In this document: positions 5,608 through 61,712 of the stretch, one piece after another | Layout of the letters: the number at the start of each line of letters is the position of its first letter | Position numbering within the stretch: position 1 is the stretch's first letter | Assembly: GCF_001983935.1 (NCBI RefSeq) | Contig: NZ_CP017641.1 | Location: forward strand, 6,419,001-6,483,000 | Direction: 5' to 3' | DNA: 64,000 nucleotides | DNA from: Fuerstiella marisgermanici | Lineage (GTDB): Bacteria; Planctomycetota; Planctomycetia; Planctomycetales; Planctomycetaceae | Translations under genes and position numbers: made by a program | Notes under the pieces: generated by a model | What the model was told of the DNA's origin: nothing | Seen by the model: the letters and a program-made list of their open reading frames with translations, nothing else | Database searches by the model: none

Positions 5608-8321
5608 AACTAATTTGCTGTGCTGCAAGAACGCTTGCTCCCTTCGACTGTTCGATTTGGGCGTGCGTGCCCGACAATTTGATCAGAAGGATCAGGAAAG
5701 AATCATTCCCATCGAAGTCTTCGTCGCCATCGACGTCTGCGATCGTGTTCAAGTTGGCAATGTAGGAACGAATGTCAGCAGCGGCACGCGGACTGTTGCC
5801 ACGGACCTGATCGATTTGAGTGTCTGTTCCGGATAATTTCACCAGATGCATTAGAAAAGAATCGTTGGCGTCAAAGTCTCCATCGCCGTCCACGTCACCA
5901 GAGATGTCTGGCGGCGGATCGACGTTTGTTACCTGAATGGTGTCAGATCCCATGGTGTACCCGTCCGCACTGGCGGTAATTGTCACGGTCTGAGTCTCGT
6001 CGAAGACATAGTCCAGCACACCGGTTAGCACTGCGAGAGCTGACGTGTTTCCAGCGCGAATCGTCACGGTCCCGGGTACAGTGGCTTCGCCAGGGTCGCT
6101 GCTTGAGAGCGACACAACAAGATCAGTGGTCGTGTCGAAGTTGCGAACCACGGTCAGGTGGGTCCCCACGAAGTTCTCAGTAACCGATTCGGCGGCAATT
6201 TCCACAAAAAGTGCGGGCACGTCCGTGTTGACAACATCGACCGTGTCACTCTGTTGCTCGTGGGCTTCGGCCATTGCTGTAATGGTAACCGTTTCCGTGC
6301 CATCGACGATCGAGTCAGCAACTCCGGAAATGGTGAACTCCGTTGTAGCTTGTCCAGCCGGAATTGTGATTGTCGCCGTAGTGATCGCTTCGCCCGGATC
6401 GCTGCTCGTCAACGTAACGACAAGCTGAGCAGCCGTCGAAGTATTGCGAGAAATCGTCGCTATAGTCGATCCGGAATCTTCTGTGATCGAATCCTGGTCG
6501 ATGATGAGAGTCAACGCAGGGATGTCCACATCCACGACACTAAGCGAACCTTGTCCGGAAGCGTGAGCCTCTGCAGTGGCCGTGATGGTGATCACCTGCG
6601 TCGAATCGACAAGCGAATCCTTCACTCCGGTAATAGTTGCCACCGCAGAATTTTGCCCTGCTGGAATAGTCACAGTTGCCGGAAGTGTGGCTTCACCGTA
6701 ATCGCTGCTGAAGAGTGTCACGGTAAGTTCGTCTGTCGCTTCTGAGTTGCGAAAGATCGTGACGGTTGTCGTGCCGGAGTCTTCTCGAATCGAACTATCG
6801 CCGATTGCTACCGACAAGAAGGCTGCGTCGACGTTGGAAACATCCACTGTGTCGATACCTGTTGCATAGCCGAGGGCGGTGGCGGTTATCGTGACAGTCT
6901 GGGTCGAATCAGCGAGGTCGTCGGGCACCCCCGTCAACGTAGCTGTTGCTGACGACTGCCCGGCAGGTATAACAACGGTTTCTGGTACCGTTGCCTCCCC
7001 GGTATCACTGCTGGACAAAGTCATCACGATTTGACCCGCGGTATCTGAACTGCGAGTCACCGTCACAGTTGAGGTGCCCGAGTCCTCGCTAATGGTATCT
7101 TCGGCGATGGCAACAATGAATCTGGCAGGCTCAAATTCGAAAGCACCGATATCAACAACTGGTGTACCACCCGGTTCTTCCGCCAAGACTCGGCCAAAGC
7201 CGGCACCTCGCTGATCTGTTGTTAAGGGATTGCCGTTTGAGTCCACAGCCTTTGCGTCGCTACCGGCATCAATAGCCGGGCCACCAGCCAGCACAGCAAT
7301 TGTTCTCGTAAGACCACCATTGTCTCGTAGAAGTGGAACCACACCGTTGTTGACCAACACGGTTTTCCAATCAACACCGACGATGTTGCCGTTCAAGCCA
7401 TCGCTTAAACCCCCCGATGTGGTCGAGTCGCCGATAAGATTAAACGATGACAGGCTGCCCACAGAATTACCGATGTCGTCCGCAATGCTGCCTCTTCGAT
7501 TGCCGGCAACAATCGTGTTCGTCAGTGTGGCTTGTCCCGATCCTTCATTGTGGATCCCTCCACCGCTGCCAACGGTTTCATTCGCTGCAATCGTGCTGTT
7601 GGTCAGCAACAATACGTCGGAGTTGTAAATACCGGCCCCGTGCTCGGATGCCGAGTTCGCAAACACAGTGCTGTTTGTGAAAGTCGCTAATCCAGCATTT
7701 GCAACACCTCCACCAAGTGTCGTCGCGGTGTTGCCAAATATGGTGCTGCCTGCAATTACCGCAGTGCCCTAGTTGTACACTGCGCCGCCTTCGCCGGTCG
7801 CTATGCTGTCAAAGATTGTACTATCGACGAGAGTGAGAGACTCACGAGACCAAATTGCCCCGCCATTATCGGCAACAGTCTCAGCAGCGAATCCGTCGTC
7901 CGCAGTTCCTCCGACGAGGTATAGTCCCGACAGGGCGATGTCCGCCTCAACGTCGTTATCACTATCGTCAATCCTGAAAATCCGAGACTCGTGGTTTGCC
8001 TCAGCACGAAGGGCTGATTCACCAAGGCTCGCGATCGAAACGGCATCCGTAATTTCCAATTCACCCAGCAACAGTGAAACCGTCCGCGAACCGCTGCATG
8101 ATATGTTTGCCGCAATCTCTATTGCATCTGCACCGATGCTGCCATTGGCAGAATTGATCGCCTCGCGCAAACTGACTTTCGGAGTGCCTCCGTCATTGTT
8201 TGTGTAATCAAATTCGTCAGAAAACGTTGTGACGTTAAAATAGCCGGAAGCCGGAGACAGAACCTGCCGTTCGTATGCCCCGATATCAGCAGTGGCATGC
8301 TCCCCTTGAACAGGTCCATCA
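5608..8321 (-). pseudogene. Surface protein remnant, segment 4 (beta-helix end, Calx-beta-like repeats, dockerin-like region)
   Basis: On the minus strand this begins ADIGAYERQ, a common end of CSLREA-type repeats, then a second SLREAINSANG motif and beta-helix-like turns. The frame meets a TAG at 7769-7771 and then continues without a shift (GTAVIAGSTIFGNT). About four repeats of some 95 residues follow, each starting like ISEDSGTSTVTVTR and containing SSDxGEATxPxTVxIPAG, which resemble Calx-beta or cadherin-like adhesin modules. Two DVDGDGDFDANDSF-type calcium-binding (dockerin-like) motifs come last. The final ten translated codons before 5582 come from the ISL3 element. This was an extracellular protein in life; it is now cut off from its N-terminus. 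Confidence 0.85.
7769..7771 (-). other. In-frame TAG within segment 4 of the surface protein
   Basis: The frame reads GGAVYN, then TAG, then GTAVIAGSTIFGNT. The protein-like pattern of Asn-rich beta-helix turns continues on both sides in the same frame. A single substitution (for example TAC to TAG) explains it. This mutation is independent of the IS insertions. Confidence 0.85.
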
Positions 8322-58554: not shown

Positions 58555-60186
58555 CTATGTTTTAGTCGTCGCCTTTTTCAGCACGAACAGCACCGGCGAT
58601 GTGGCCTTTGCGGGAGTGCTGTTGATTGTTTGAAGATCGTGCGTGTCAGCGTATCTCTGCAACAGTTGCTCGACAGCGGCGAATTCTTCCGGACCGCCGG
58701 CGTGGCCTCGATAGGCCAGGACTGTTAATACTCCGGCAGGCTTGAGAAGTTCGACAGCGGCGGTGATAGCCTTGACTGTCGTACGCGGCTGAGTCGTGAT
58801 GGCGTGATCGCTGCGGGGCAGGAAGCCGAGGTTGAACATGATCGCCGTGGGAGGTTGTGCACTGGTGGCTTCGTCGGCAAGTGTTTCGTGGCCTTTGTGC
58901 AACAGCGTGACATTGTGCAGGTCAGCCGCCTGAAGGCGTTTGGCTGTTGCGTTAAGAGCCGACTGCTGGACATCGAAGCCGATGACGAAACCTGTTGGGC
59001 CAACTGTGCGGCTTAGAAAACACGTGTCGAAGCCGTTGCCGACCGTGGCATCCACTGCGGAATCGCCAGGCTGCAGGACGCTCGCCACGGCTTCCTGGGC
59101 TCGTTGAGTTAACGGCCGGGGACGTCGTTCGACTTCGCTTGTCGTTTTCAGACGGTCATAACAAACGGTTGCTCGAATGTTGTCTTCGCCGTCAAGTATG
59201 CTCGACAGTTCTGCCGCCAGCCGAGGAGCCTTTAGTGTGCCCTTCGATCCGAGTCCGTTGAAGACGAACAGTTGTTGGATGTTCGGATGGCGACCCAGCA
59301 CAGCCTCGTAGTCCTTCATGGTCGGTCGTACTCCTGCCGTGTGGTCGACAACTTCCACGTCGCCGTCAACCATGCGTCCCAGTTTGTGCAGCACTTCGTC
59401 TCGACCGGCCGACGATGGTTCTGCCACGGTGCTGTTCCAATCGTAGGTCGCTCCGACACTCTGCGTCCCATCCGAATTCGGCGCGATCCAAACGCTGCGG
59501 TGGGCCACTTCCGGTCGAATGTAGTCCGGGATACGCACCTTCAGTATGTCACCGCGCGCCGGATTATTAGGGACGTTGGGAAAGTAGTCGTTGGCGGTCG
59601 CTCCCTGACAAAGCACGATCCGTTTAGCAATCAGATCAAGTCGTTTCACAGTAACCTGTCGGTCAGTGAATTCGACGTCTCTGGCGAAATTCAATTCTTC
59701 GCAGCGAAGACTGTTGAGAGATTCAAAGTGTGTTCGTGTGGCGGCGAGGTAGGCCGGCACGTTGAGCCGACCTGCGGGCTGCATGACGATCCCCAGCTGT
59801 GGTTGCCCTTCTGCCTGCAGCAGACCGTCCCAACATGCGATGGACTGTACCTGCTGGTTGTCGCTGCGTTGCAGAAATTCGGCTCTCACGTGTTCATTCG
59901 CAAACAACCTCAGCATCGGTGCTTCTGTCCAGAAATGCTGCCCGGTTCGCTGTTCGACCTTCTGGTAAAACGCGGTTGCCGGTGCCCAATCGGCTTCGAA
60001 GTCGGGTGACTGAACCAGCCGTTTTCCCGTGACGGGCGTGACGAGTCCCGCCGCCACTCGCGAAGCCGAGTTTGGTTCGCCACGATCAACGATCATCAGG
60101 CTGTGGCCAGCCGTGGACAAAGTCCACGCCAAAGCTGATCCGGCAAGGCCCTGTCCGACGATAATGGTTTGAACATGAGTCGACAT
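58555..60186 (-). CDS. FAD-dependent oxidoreductase (MnmC(o)-like) fused to YtqB/MnmM-like methyltransferase
   Basis: 543 residues from 60186 (MSTHVQTIIVGQGLAGSALA). Residues 1-350 are a DAO-type FAD oxidoreductase: the Rossmann motif VGQGLAG at 10-16, ASRVAAGLVTPVTG, and FNGLGSKGTLKAPRLAAEL near 309, similar in layout to the C-terminal oxidoreductase half of E. coli MnmC. Residues ~360-543 are a class I SAM methyltransferase of the YtqB (now MnmM) family: DATVGNGFDTCFLSR at 379, MFNLGFLPRSDHAITTQP at 450 and YRGHAGGPEE near 492. If both act on the same substrate, the protein would convert cmnm5(s2)U34 to nm5 and then mnm5(s2)U34 in tRNA. The role is inferred from domains. Confidence 0.85.
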   Translation of the reverse strand: MSTHVQTIIVGQGLAGSALAWTLSTAGHSLMIVDRGEPNSASRVAAGLVTPVTGKRLVQSPDFEADWAPATAFYQKVEQRTGQHFWTEAPMLRLFANEHVRAEFLQRSDNQQVQSIACWDGLLQAEGQPQLGIVMQPAGRLNVPAYLAATRTHFESLNSLRCEELNFARDVEFTDRQVTVKRLDLIAKRIVLCQGATANDYFPNVPNNPARGDILKVRIPDYIRPEVAHRSVWIAPNSDGTQSVGATYDWNSTVAEPSSAGRDEVLHKLGRMVDGDVEVVDHTAGVRPTMKDYEAVLGRHPNIQQLFVFNGLGSKGTLKAPRLAAELSSILDGEDNIRATVCYDRLKTTSEVERRPRPLTQRAQEAVASVLQPGDSAVDATVGNGFDTCFLSRTVGPTGFVIGFDVQQSALNATAKRLQAADLHNVTLLHKGHETLADEATSAQPPTAIMFNLGFLPRSDHAITTQPRTTVKAITAAVELLKPAGVLTVLAYRGHAGGPEEFAAVEQLLQRYADTHDLQTINSTPAKATSPVLFVLKKATTKT

Positions 60187-60422
60187 GTTCGGATTGTGGT
60201 CGCCTTCGTGAAGCGTTGCTGCGTGCAAAGCCCGCCTTTTCAGAAAAGCGAGCCTTCTCTGCCACGCTCCCGCTTTCGACCAATCTTCTCGTTGTTTTTC
60301 TACCCCGGTTTCGCGTATTCTCCAGGTATTACCTGCCTAATTCACCCACCCCGCGTCTGCTCGCAGCTTGAGTCCGATGTCTCTAAGAGTCGCGATCGCC
60401 GCCACCTTACGGAGTTTCTTCC

Positions 60423-61712
60423 ATGACGAACCAAACACGCCGAAGCTTTCTACAGACCTCCACCGCTGCCGCTCTGGCCACTGGCATTTATGCGGGCCAT
60501 GCCACGGCAGCCCCCACTCGCAGCCCTTTGGAAAAGCTAAACATCGCCTGCATCGGTACCGCCAACCGAGCGGCTGCTGACGTTAATGGCGTCATGACAG
60601 AAAATATCGTCGCTCTGTGTGATGTCGACGGTAAATATCTGGAAGCGTCCAAGAAGATGCTGATCGAAAAGAACGGGCTCGAACCTCGCGTCTACGCGGA
60701 CTACCGCGAAATGATCGAAGCGGAAGGCGACAAGATCGATGCCGTCACCGTCGCCACGACCGACCATCATCACGCTCCGGCAACCATGCAGGCCATCAAA
60801 GCGGGCAAGCATGTTTACTGCGAAAAGCCGCTCACGCACACCGTGAAAGAAGCTCGCATGATCGCCGAAGCCGCAGCGGAAGCCGGCGTCGCCACTCAGT
60901 TGGGCACTCAGATTCACGCCGGTGACAACTATCGCCGCGTTGTCGAAATCATTCAAAGCGGTGCCATTGGCGATGTGACGGACGTTCACGTCTGGGTCGG
61001 CAAAGGCTGGGGGATCACCGAACTGACGGGCAAAGAATCAGCACCTCCAGAATGGTTGAGCTGGGACTTGTGGCTCGGCCCGGCTCCAGAACGTCCCTAC
61101 GTCGCTGGCCGCTACCATCCTGCTCAATGGCGTCGCTTCTGGGACTTCGGTCAGGGAACTTTGGGCGACATGGCTTGCCATTTCATGGACCTGCCATTCT
61201 GGGCTCTTGATCTGAAGCACCCGACTCACTGCGAAGCCGAAGGTGCCGAAGTGAACGAAGAAATGTGTCCAACCGGCCTGGTCGTTCGCTACAAGTTCCC
61301 GACCTGCAACCTGACATGGTACGACGGCGACATGATTCCCAAGCAGGTGGCCGGCGAACGAGTGCCAGCCAGCGGCGTTATGTTTGTTGGTACGGAAGGC
61401 AAGATGTTCGCCGACTACGGCAGATATCGTCTGTACCCCAGCGACAAGTTCACCGGCTTTAAGCCCCCTGAGCAGACGATTCCAAAATCGATCGGACATC
61501 ATCAGGAATGGATCAAGGCTTGCAAAGATGGTTCACCAACCACCTGCAACTTCGATTACTCTGGTGCTCTGACGGAAACCGTACTACTGGGCAACGTGGC
61601 TTACCGAACTGGTAAGTCGCTGGAATGGGATGCCAAGAACCTGAAGGCGACCAATTGCCCCGAAGCCGACGCCTACATCACCAAAGAATACCGCTCAGGC
61701 TGGGTGGTGTAA
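60423..61712 (+). CDS. Gfo/Idh/MocA family oxidoreductase (Tat-exported)
   Basis: 429 residues. The twin-arginine signal TRRSFLQTSTAAALATGIYA is followed by an NAD-binding Rossmann fold (LNIACIGTANRAAADVNGVM) and the family motif VYCEKPLTHTVKEARMIAEA. Planctomycetes encode many such secreted members; the substrate is probably a sugar or inositol derivative but cannot be read from sequence. The long spacer downstream contains a direct repeat and hairpins. Confidence 0.92.
   Translation: MTNQTRRSFLQTSTAAALATGIYAGHATAAPTRSPLEKLNIACIGTANRAAADVNGVMTENIVALCDVDGKYLEASKKMLIEKNGLEPRVYADYREMIEAEGDKIDAVTVATTDHHHAPATMQAIKAGKHVYCEKPLTHTVKEARMIAEAAAEAGVATQLGTQIHAGDNYRRVVEIIQSGAIGDVTDVHVWVGKGWGITELTGKESAPPEWLSWDLWLGPAPERPYVAGRYHPAQWRRFWDFGQGTLGDMACHFMDLPFWALDLKHPTHCEAEGAEVNEEMCPTGLVVRYKFPTCNLTWYDGDMIPKQVAGERVPASGVMFVGTEGKMFADYGRYRLYPSDKFTGFKPPEQTIPKSIGHHQEWIKACKDGSPTTCNFDYSGALTETVLLGNVAYRTGKSLEWDAKNLKATNCPEADAYITKEYRSGWVV

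Follow-up and report, generated by a model that had tools for sequence, protein, structure and literature searches.

Results

One open frame joins an FAD oxidoreductase to a methyltransferase

E. coli MnmC carries a SAM-dependent domain, MnmC(m), followed by an FAD-dependent domain, MnmC(o), in a single protein. In the window, which is the whole 64,000-nucleotide stretch of DNA analysed here, an earlier note had pointed to a frame that seemed to hold two such domains the other way round, and had proposed that this one protein performs both steps on the tRNA wobble uridine. Could this be an enzyme that works like MnmC, built from other parts? The features concerned are as follows.

58555..60186, minus strand: fused gene, FAD oxidoreductase plus MnmM methyltransferase, 543 aa plus stop (one open frame, fused homologues L051-L055, structure model)
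59152..60186, minus strand: FAD oxidoreductase half, residues 1-345, DAO fold (Pfam PF01266, family alignment A1, residue comparison, fold search)
59110..59151, minus strand: inter-domain linker, about residues 346-359 (the model is least confident here, at 349-355)
58573..59109, minus strand: MnmM (YtqB) methyltransferase half, residues 360-538 (NCBIfam NF053511 match; residue counts against B. subtilis MnmM mutants)

The frame runs uninterrupted on the minus strand from an ATG at 60186 to a stop at 58555-58557 and encodes 543 amino acids. An in-frame TTG lies upstream of this ATG, at 60228; the nearest homologue, L051, aligns from the ATG. The Pfam DAO profile PF01266 matched residues 8-327 with 99.6 bits (cut-off 27.9), PF06962 matched residues 401-533 with 122.5 bits (cut-off 22.7), and the NCBIfam MnmM profile NF053511 matched residues 360-538 with 171.4 bits (cut-off 135), over positions 4-182 of its 183. 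These domain matches confirm that both domains lie in one frame of 543 amino acids, and the order is indeed the reverse of that in E. coli MnmC, with FAD at 1-345 and MnmM at 360-538. The motifs that the earlier note had quoted (DATVGNG, FNLGFLPRSD and RGHAGGPEE for the methyltransferase, GLGSKG for the oxidoreductase) are present in the translation. In an AlphaFold2 model built with an 11-row alignment, both domains were confidently predicted and a weak stretch at 349-355 separated them (mean pLDDT 85.9, pTM 0.64).

Perhaps the joint frame was an artefact of frame or assembly? A scan of GTDB genomes returned nine loci related to the fusion. Five of them (L051-L055), all from Planctomycetaceae and two of them titled Fuerstiella, are fused homologues that cover the whole protein at 45-56% identity, which rules out such an artefact. 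L056, from Cycloclasticus, has the FAD gene and mnmM as two separate, overlapping genes, while L057-L059 have MnmM, with no FAD match within the locus DNA searched. A sixth fused frame, of 641 amino acids, was found at locus L031 in G291, a one-contig genome. The fusion is real and not ordinary, and its context ties it well to tRNA modification.

The C-terminal half is a predicted MnmM

The methyltransferase had been assigned to the YtqB/MnmM family, a different one from that in E. coli MnmC. This assignment held: NF053511 matched over its cut-off, and PF05430, the MnmC(m) methyltransferase domain, had no match in the fusion protein. Foldseek placed the C-terminal domain on MnmM-family structures (e.g. 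8h0s, 8h1b and 4poo), with TM by target of 0.88-0.92 among the matches listed.

Seven tRNA-binding or catalytic residues were compared with those of B. subtilis MnmM, and four are kept: Asp387, Asn452, Tyr492 and His495 of the window protein correspond to Asp34, Asn101, Tyr141 and His144. Mutants of these four are reported to be nearly inactive in B. subtilis MnmM (PMC9976899). When we aligned 41 MnmM copies, 17 that had been used for our own profile and 24 from gammaproteobacterial loci, the equivalents of Asp34, Asn101 and Tyr141 were present in 41/41 and that of His144 in 40/41. The other three positions are replaced: Gln364, Phe455 and His461 stand where B. subtilis MnmM has Lys11, Tyr104 and Lys110. 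Lys11 is absent from 40 of the 41 copies, Lys110 from 17 and Tyr104 from 4, and the same substitutions as in the window occur in 10/41 (Gln at Lys11), 11/41 (His at Lys110) and 4/41 (Phe at Tyr104). In B. subtilis MnmM, Y104F is reported to cut activity about three-fold, and K11E and K110E to leave almost none (PMC9976899). Since residues whose mutants are impaired in B. subtilis are replaced here, these contacts may be made differently in the fusion. From the profile and residue comparisons, we file the C-terminal half as an MnmM.

The FAD half forms a clade of its own

The earlier note had likened the oxidoreductase half to MnmC(o). Residue comparison lent this some support. The half carries GQGLAG at 11-16, Arg287, and GLGSKG at 311-316. 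By alignment, Arg287 is the equivalent of E. coli MnmC Arg567 and is kept in 47/47 rows of the FAD family; Ser42 aligns with MnmC Ser304, and Gly245, Gly298 and Gly316 correspond to Gly518, Gly578 and Gly619. A GS[K/R]G loop, present as GSKG at 313-316 in the window, occurs in 6/6 MnmC(o) rows and in 0/9 ThiO-like rows. Within the FAD family the loop is not strict, though most members have it: Gly313 was found in 42/47 rows, Ser314 in 39/47, Lys or Arg at 315 in 46/47 and Gly316 in 47/47. The equivalent of MnmC Tyr504 is a tyrosine in all six MnmC rows and all nine ThiO-like rows; the window has Trp233, and tryptophan stands at this position in 19/19 planctomycetes and 22/28 gammaproteobacteria of the FAD family. 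In glycine oxidase, the tyrosine at this position touches the substrate. The change from tyrosine to tryptophan suggests that the pocket of the FAD half differs from those of MnmC(o) and ThiO.

Scores, tree and fold told against the rest of the likeness. The MnmC(o) profile TIGR03197 gave the FAD half 75 bits, below its cut-off of 174.2, and the ThiO profile TIGR02352 gave a higher score, 104 bits, which is also below cut-off (250.8). TIGR03197 matched 18/18 members of family alignment A1 at E<=1e-10. In a 67-row tree, which was unrooted, included only six MnmC rows and no IdaA, and omitted L118 as a copy of L056, the 47 FAD-family rows formed one clade (100/100) on a long branch, the six MnmC(o) rows formed a separate clade (100/99), and the ThiO-like rows lay elsewhere. 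This tree came with warnings about long branches, including L003, L005, L001, L141 and L107, and about rows of odd composition. As it is unrooted and MnmC(o) is thinly sampled, it speaks to the separateness of the clades and not to which of them is nearest. Foldseek ranked the iminodiacetate oxidase IdaA, glycine oxidase and CmiS2 before MnmC, with IdaA the nearest solved fold. The comparison of predicted structures that had been proposed for the two halves hence gave a divided answer: the C-terminal half fell on MnmM structures, but the FAD half fell nearest IdaA and not MnmC(o). What stands of the proposed likeness is the loop and the equivalent of Arg567; what does not is membership of the MnmC(o) clade.

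A ThiO over cut-off is encoded elsewhere in the host genome (L002, 280.2 bits against 250.8), which rules out that the FAD half is the ThiO of its host. From these comparisons we place the FAD half in a clade of its own, apart from both MnmC(o) and ThiO, and do not file it as MnmC(o).

The host genome has no classical MnmC over cut-off

The host genome consists of one 8.92 Mb contig and is listed as 100% complete. Its one MnmM over cut-off is the fusion itself; a second match to the MnmM profile was dropped at 28.2 bits against the cut-off of 135. PF05430, the MnmC methyltransferase, had no match at E<=0.001 in the whole genome. No protein in it scored over cut-off for MnmC(o) with TIGR03197, the best being the ThiO (95.8 against 174.2 bits), or for the radical-SAM profile TIGR01212 (best 42.5 against 180). 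The search for mnmC or a separate mnmM had been set beforehand as a check, and these profiles rule out either one over cut-off in the host genome.

MnmG matched with 836 bits. An MnmE-like protein, G000:C1:4839806-4841110 (L091), scored 231 bits, below the cut-off of 252.6, and spans positions 8-446 of 446. With MnmG and an MnmE-like protein present, the substrate would be expected to be made in this host. The fused gene is the only candidate that we found in the host genome for finishing the wobble modification.

FAD family and MnmM occur together in planctomycetes

MnmM was found over cut-off in 19 of 294 planctomycete genomes, and the FAD family, at E<=1e-40, in 14 of the 294; all 14 are among the 19 with MnmM. 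The FAD gene directly precedes mnmM in ten of these 14, the two are fused in two (the host and G291), and they lie far apart in two (G024 and G283). Within the window's family (f1, 17 genomes), 14 have both genes and 3 have neither (Fisher p 0.0015); like all our co-occurrence counts, this is uncorrected for kinship.

What might supply MnmM where the FAD gene is missing? TIGR01212 matched, at E<=1e-30, none of the 14 planctomycete FAD genomes and three of the five MnmM genomes without an FAD gene (G017, G058 and G259; Fisher p 0.010, uncorrected for kinship). The profile is not specific to MnmL, since it also has matches in E. coli and in 96/294 planctomycete genomes, mostly without MnmM. In the remaining two, G071 and G107 (loci L028 and L023), MnmM is over cut-off and neither an FAD-family nor a TIGR01212 match was found. 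A Pfam scan of eight frames beside mnmM, at five of the seven loci where no FAD gene adjoins it (L022, L023, L028, L036 and L038, leaving out L030 and L039), yielded no candidate partner in those frames. In the nine FAD-bearing genomes searched for MnmC(o) (the host, G024, G283 and G294-G299), no match exceeded the cut-off, and the host, G024 and G283, which were searched for both, had neither MnmC(o) nor TIGR01212 over cut-off.

Searching plasmids with the fusion returned 13 records; in none of them was 80% of the query matched at a single place. On a Piscirickettsia salmonis plasmid (L148, 2750-4155), an FAD-only MnmC gene follows a 132-base gene annotated as MnmC family methyltransferase, an arrangement in which MnmC looks split or decayed. 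In Neisseria gonorrhoeae (L152), a short MnmM-like frame of 129 amino acids and a frame that matches the MnmC(o) half of E. coli MnmC lie about 3 kb apart (2183-2569 and 5755-7422).

Most relatives carry two overlapping genes

The Cycloclasticus genome of L056 (G299) belongs to the Gammaproteobacteria and had no MnmC(o) over cut-off. The record titles of L051-L056 are the basis on which the sampled genomes are assigned to planctomycetes and gammaproteobacteria. In the class of G299 (369 genomes), 32 genomes matched the FAD profile at E<=1e-18, and 28 of these had a strong full-length match (E<=1e-55). The mnmM gene, found there with our own profile from 17 MnmM rows, lies directly downstream of the FAD gene in 25 of these 28; at L123, L124 and L141 none was seen beside the FAD gene, the search covering the neighbourhood of that gene only.

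In 35/35 adjacent pairs (10 from planctomycetes, 25 from the class of G299), mnmM has a candidate start that overlaps the stop of the FAD gene; since the start chosen for each pair was the one closest to that stop, with ATG preferred, the count leans to short distances. The overlap is ATGA in 8 of the pairs and one shared base in 4. Overlapping starts of this kind are typical of translational coupling. We regard the separate, overlapping genes of most relatives as the stronger evidence for the pairing of the FAD family with MnmM. At L142 (G366, 478-2517), the FAD family domain occupies residues 342-669 of a 680-residue frame whose first 341 residues have no Pfam match (E<=1e-5).

The fusion may have arisen twice

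The sequences suggest that the fusion descends from such a two-gene operon, with an mnmM start overlapping the end of the FAD gene. In a 25-row tree, the six fused Fuerstiella-type rows formed one clade (100/98), and the fused row of G291 fell in another group. The seven fused rows came together in 0/200 bootstrap trees, with an AU test p of 0.040; this group had been defined once a tree was already in view, and the starred branches by themselves require no more than a single change. The fusion may have arisen twice. The frame that lies divergently upstream in L051, L052 and L055 starts, by eye, much like window frame 60423-61712, which suggests that the locus was inherited in place.

The proposal that the fusion was invented independently of MnmC was borne out. 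At L039 (G259, 1-2094), MnmM occupies residues 501-654 of a 698-residue frame whose first 497 residues have no Pfam match (E<=1e-5); this may be another fusion or no more than an open frame.

A proposed function and its rivals

With the fusion, the operon, the co-occurrence and the conserved residues in hand, and no MnmC or second MnmM over cut-off in the host genome, we consider it probable that the fusion protein is a tRNA wobble-uridine enzyme with two activities, working as MnmC does but assembled from other components. That one protein performs both tRNA steps we infer from genome context and knowledge of the families. MnmE and MnmG would first make cmnm5(s2)U34, which would bind the flavin domain with its carboxylate held by the invariant Arg287. 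The N-terminal flavin domain would oxidise the glycine-like side chain next to the carboxylate to an imine, whose hydrolysis would give glyoxylate and nm5(s2)U34. The C-terminal MnmM domain would then use SAM to methylate the freed amine, yielding mnm5(s2)U34. Domain order would here be reaction order, opposite to E. coli MnmC. We infer the substrate, the chemistry and the order of steps for the fusion, the chemistry by analogy with MnmC(o) (PMC3648344). IdaA, of the same fold as the FAD half, is reported to take carboxymethyl groups off iminodiacetate and EDDA, releasing glyoxylate (PMC7312458).

We also think it rather likely that the FAD family is a third family that decarboxymethylates cmnm5(s2)U34. 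It would be a flavin oxidase, neither MnmC(o) nor the radical-SAM MnmL, recruited from the glycine-oxidase fold and encoded in an MnmM-coupled operon in planctomycetes and gammaproteobacteria, and perhaps fused twice into a reversed-order MnmC analogue with tryptophan in place of the tyrosine of MnmC(o) and ThiO.

Might the FAD half instead be a very divergent MnmC(o) orthologue, and the system an MnmC whose methyltransferase was replaced by MnmM? The shared GS[K/R]G loop would fit, as would position 248, which is Tyr, Phe or Trp in at least 41/47 FAD-family rows and Tyr or Phe in 6/6 MnmC(o). However, the two families form separate, well-supported clades (in an unrooted tree with six MnmC rows), and both the cysteine after the arginine and the insert before the C-terminal motif of E. 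coli MnmC are absent from the FAD half. We consider such orthology unlikely. It seems quite improbable, too, that the FAD half oxidises small-molecule amines, much as glycine oxidase does, and that its pairing with a true MnmM half serves metabolism and not tRNA. By score and by fold it resembles glycine oxidase and IdaA more closely than MnmC(o), and 3/28 gammaproteobacterial loci have no mnmM beside the FAD gene; but the host has its separate ThiO over cut-off, 14/14 planctomycete genomes with the FAD family (of 294) also have an MnmM over cut-off, candidate starts overlap in all 35 adjacent pairs, the genes may have fused twice, and the loop is found in every MnmC(o) row and in none of the ThiO-like rows.

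The FAD half could also work on tRNA U34 at another step or on another intermediate. Trp233 points to a pocket unlike that of MnmC(o) or ThiO, no partner of either kind was found for the MnmM of G071 and G107, and MnmEG with ammonium is reported to make nm5U directly in E. coli (PMC3936742). Against this, gene and domain order and the invariant arginine fit an MnmC(o)-like step, no MnmC(o) was over cut-off in the nine FAD-bearing genomes, and the 14 planctomycete FAD genomes had no TIGR01212 match at E<=1e-30. We judge a role at another step very improbable and retain the two-step, MnmC-like enzyme as the preferred reading.

Discussion

By analogy, we describe the whole protein as a putative MnmC analogue. 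It resembles E. coli MnmC in having an FAD-dependent and a SAM-dependent domain in one protein, in the two U34 steps expected of it, and in the equivalents of Arg567, Ser304, Gly518, Gly578 and Gly619 that its FAD half keeps. Unlike E. coli MnmC, it has the reversed domain order and a methyltransferase of another family, and its FAD half lies in another clade, below the MnmC(o) cut-off. Its C-terminal half is like MnmM (YtqB) of B. subtilis and S. aureus, of which family it is a member by profile cut-off, with four of the seven residues compared; it differs in being fused behind a flavin enzyme and in having Phe, His and Gln for Tyr104, Lys110 and Lys11.

The logic would be that of the Gram-positive pathway of MnmL and MnmM, in which MnmM needs nm5(s2)U to be supplied. 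There the partner is MnmL, which we take to be YtqA, a radical-SAM protein of TIGR01212; here it is a flavin enzyme, and TIGR01212 has no match over cut-off in the host or at E<=1e-30 in the 13 other planctomycete FAD genomes. ThiO and IdaA share the fold of the FAD half, and IdaA offers the removal of carboxymethyl groups as glyoxylate. In the tree, where IdaA is not among the rows, the FAD half nevertheless stands apart from ThiO; it has Trp233 where ThiO-like rows have tyrosine, and has MnmM alongside in 14/14 planctomycete genomes.

The abstract of Jaroch et al. 2024 reportedly mentions fusion proteins in the wobble-uridine (MnmM) pathway, so the fusion may already be in print. Our literature search of titles and abstracts, with most subscription papers outside its coverage, returned nothing on an FAD-MnmM fusion or operon. 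PMC9976899 describes a genome comparison in which a fused oxidoreductase-methyltransferase, or an operon, was expected and did not turn up, and states that the MnmC(o)-like partner enzyme of MnmM organisms was unknown; in its main text, neither 'fusion' nor 'planctomycet' occurs. MnmL was listed later, named beside MnmC for the step that supplies nm5(s2)U (PMC12548931).

For genomes such as the host, G024 and G283, in which neither MnmC(o) nor TIGR01212 exceeded its cut-off, the operon and the fusion point to a specific flavin enzyme. If our reading is true, the same two-step fusion has been made from different parent families. It suggests a testable route by which these bacteria may finish the modification of the tRNA wobble base without a classical MnmC.
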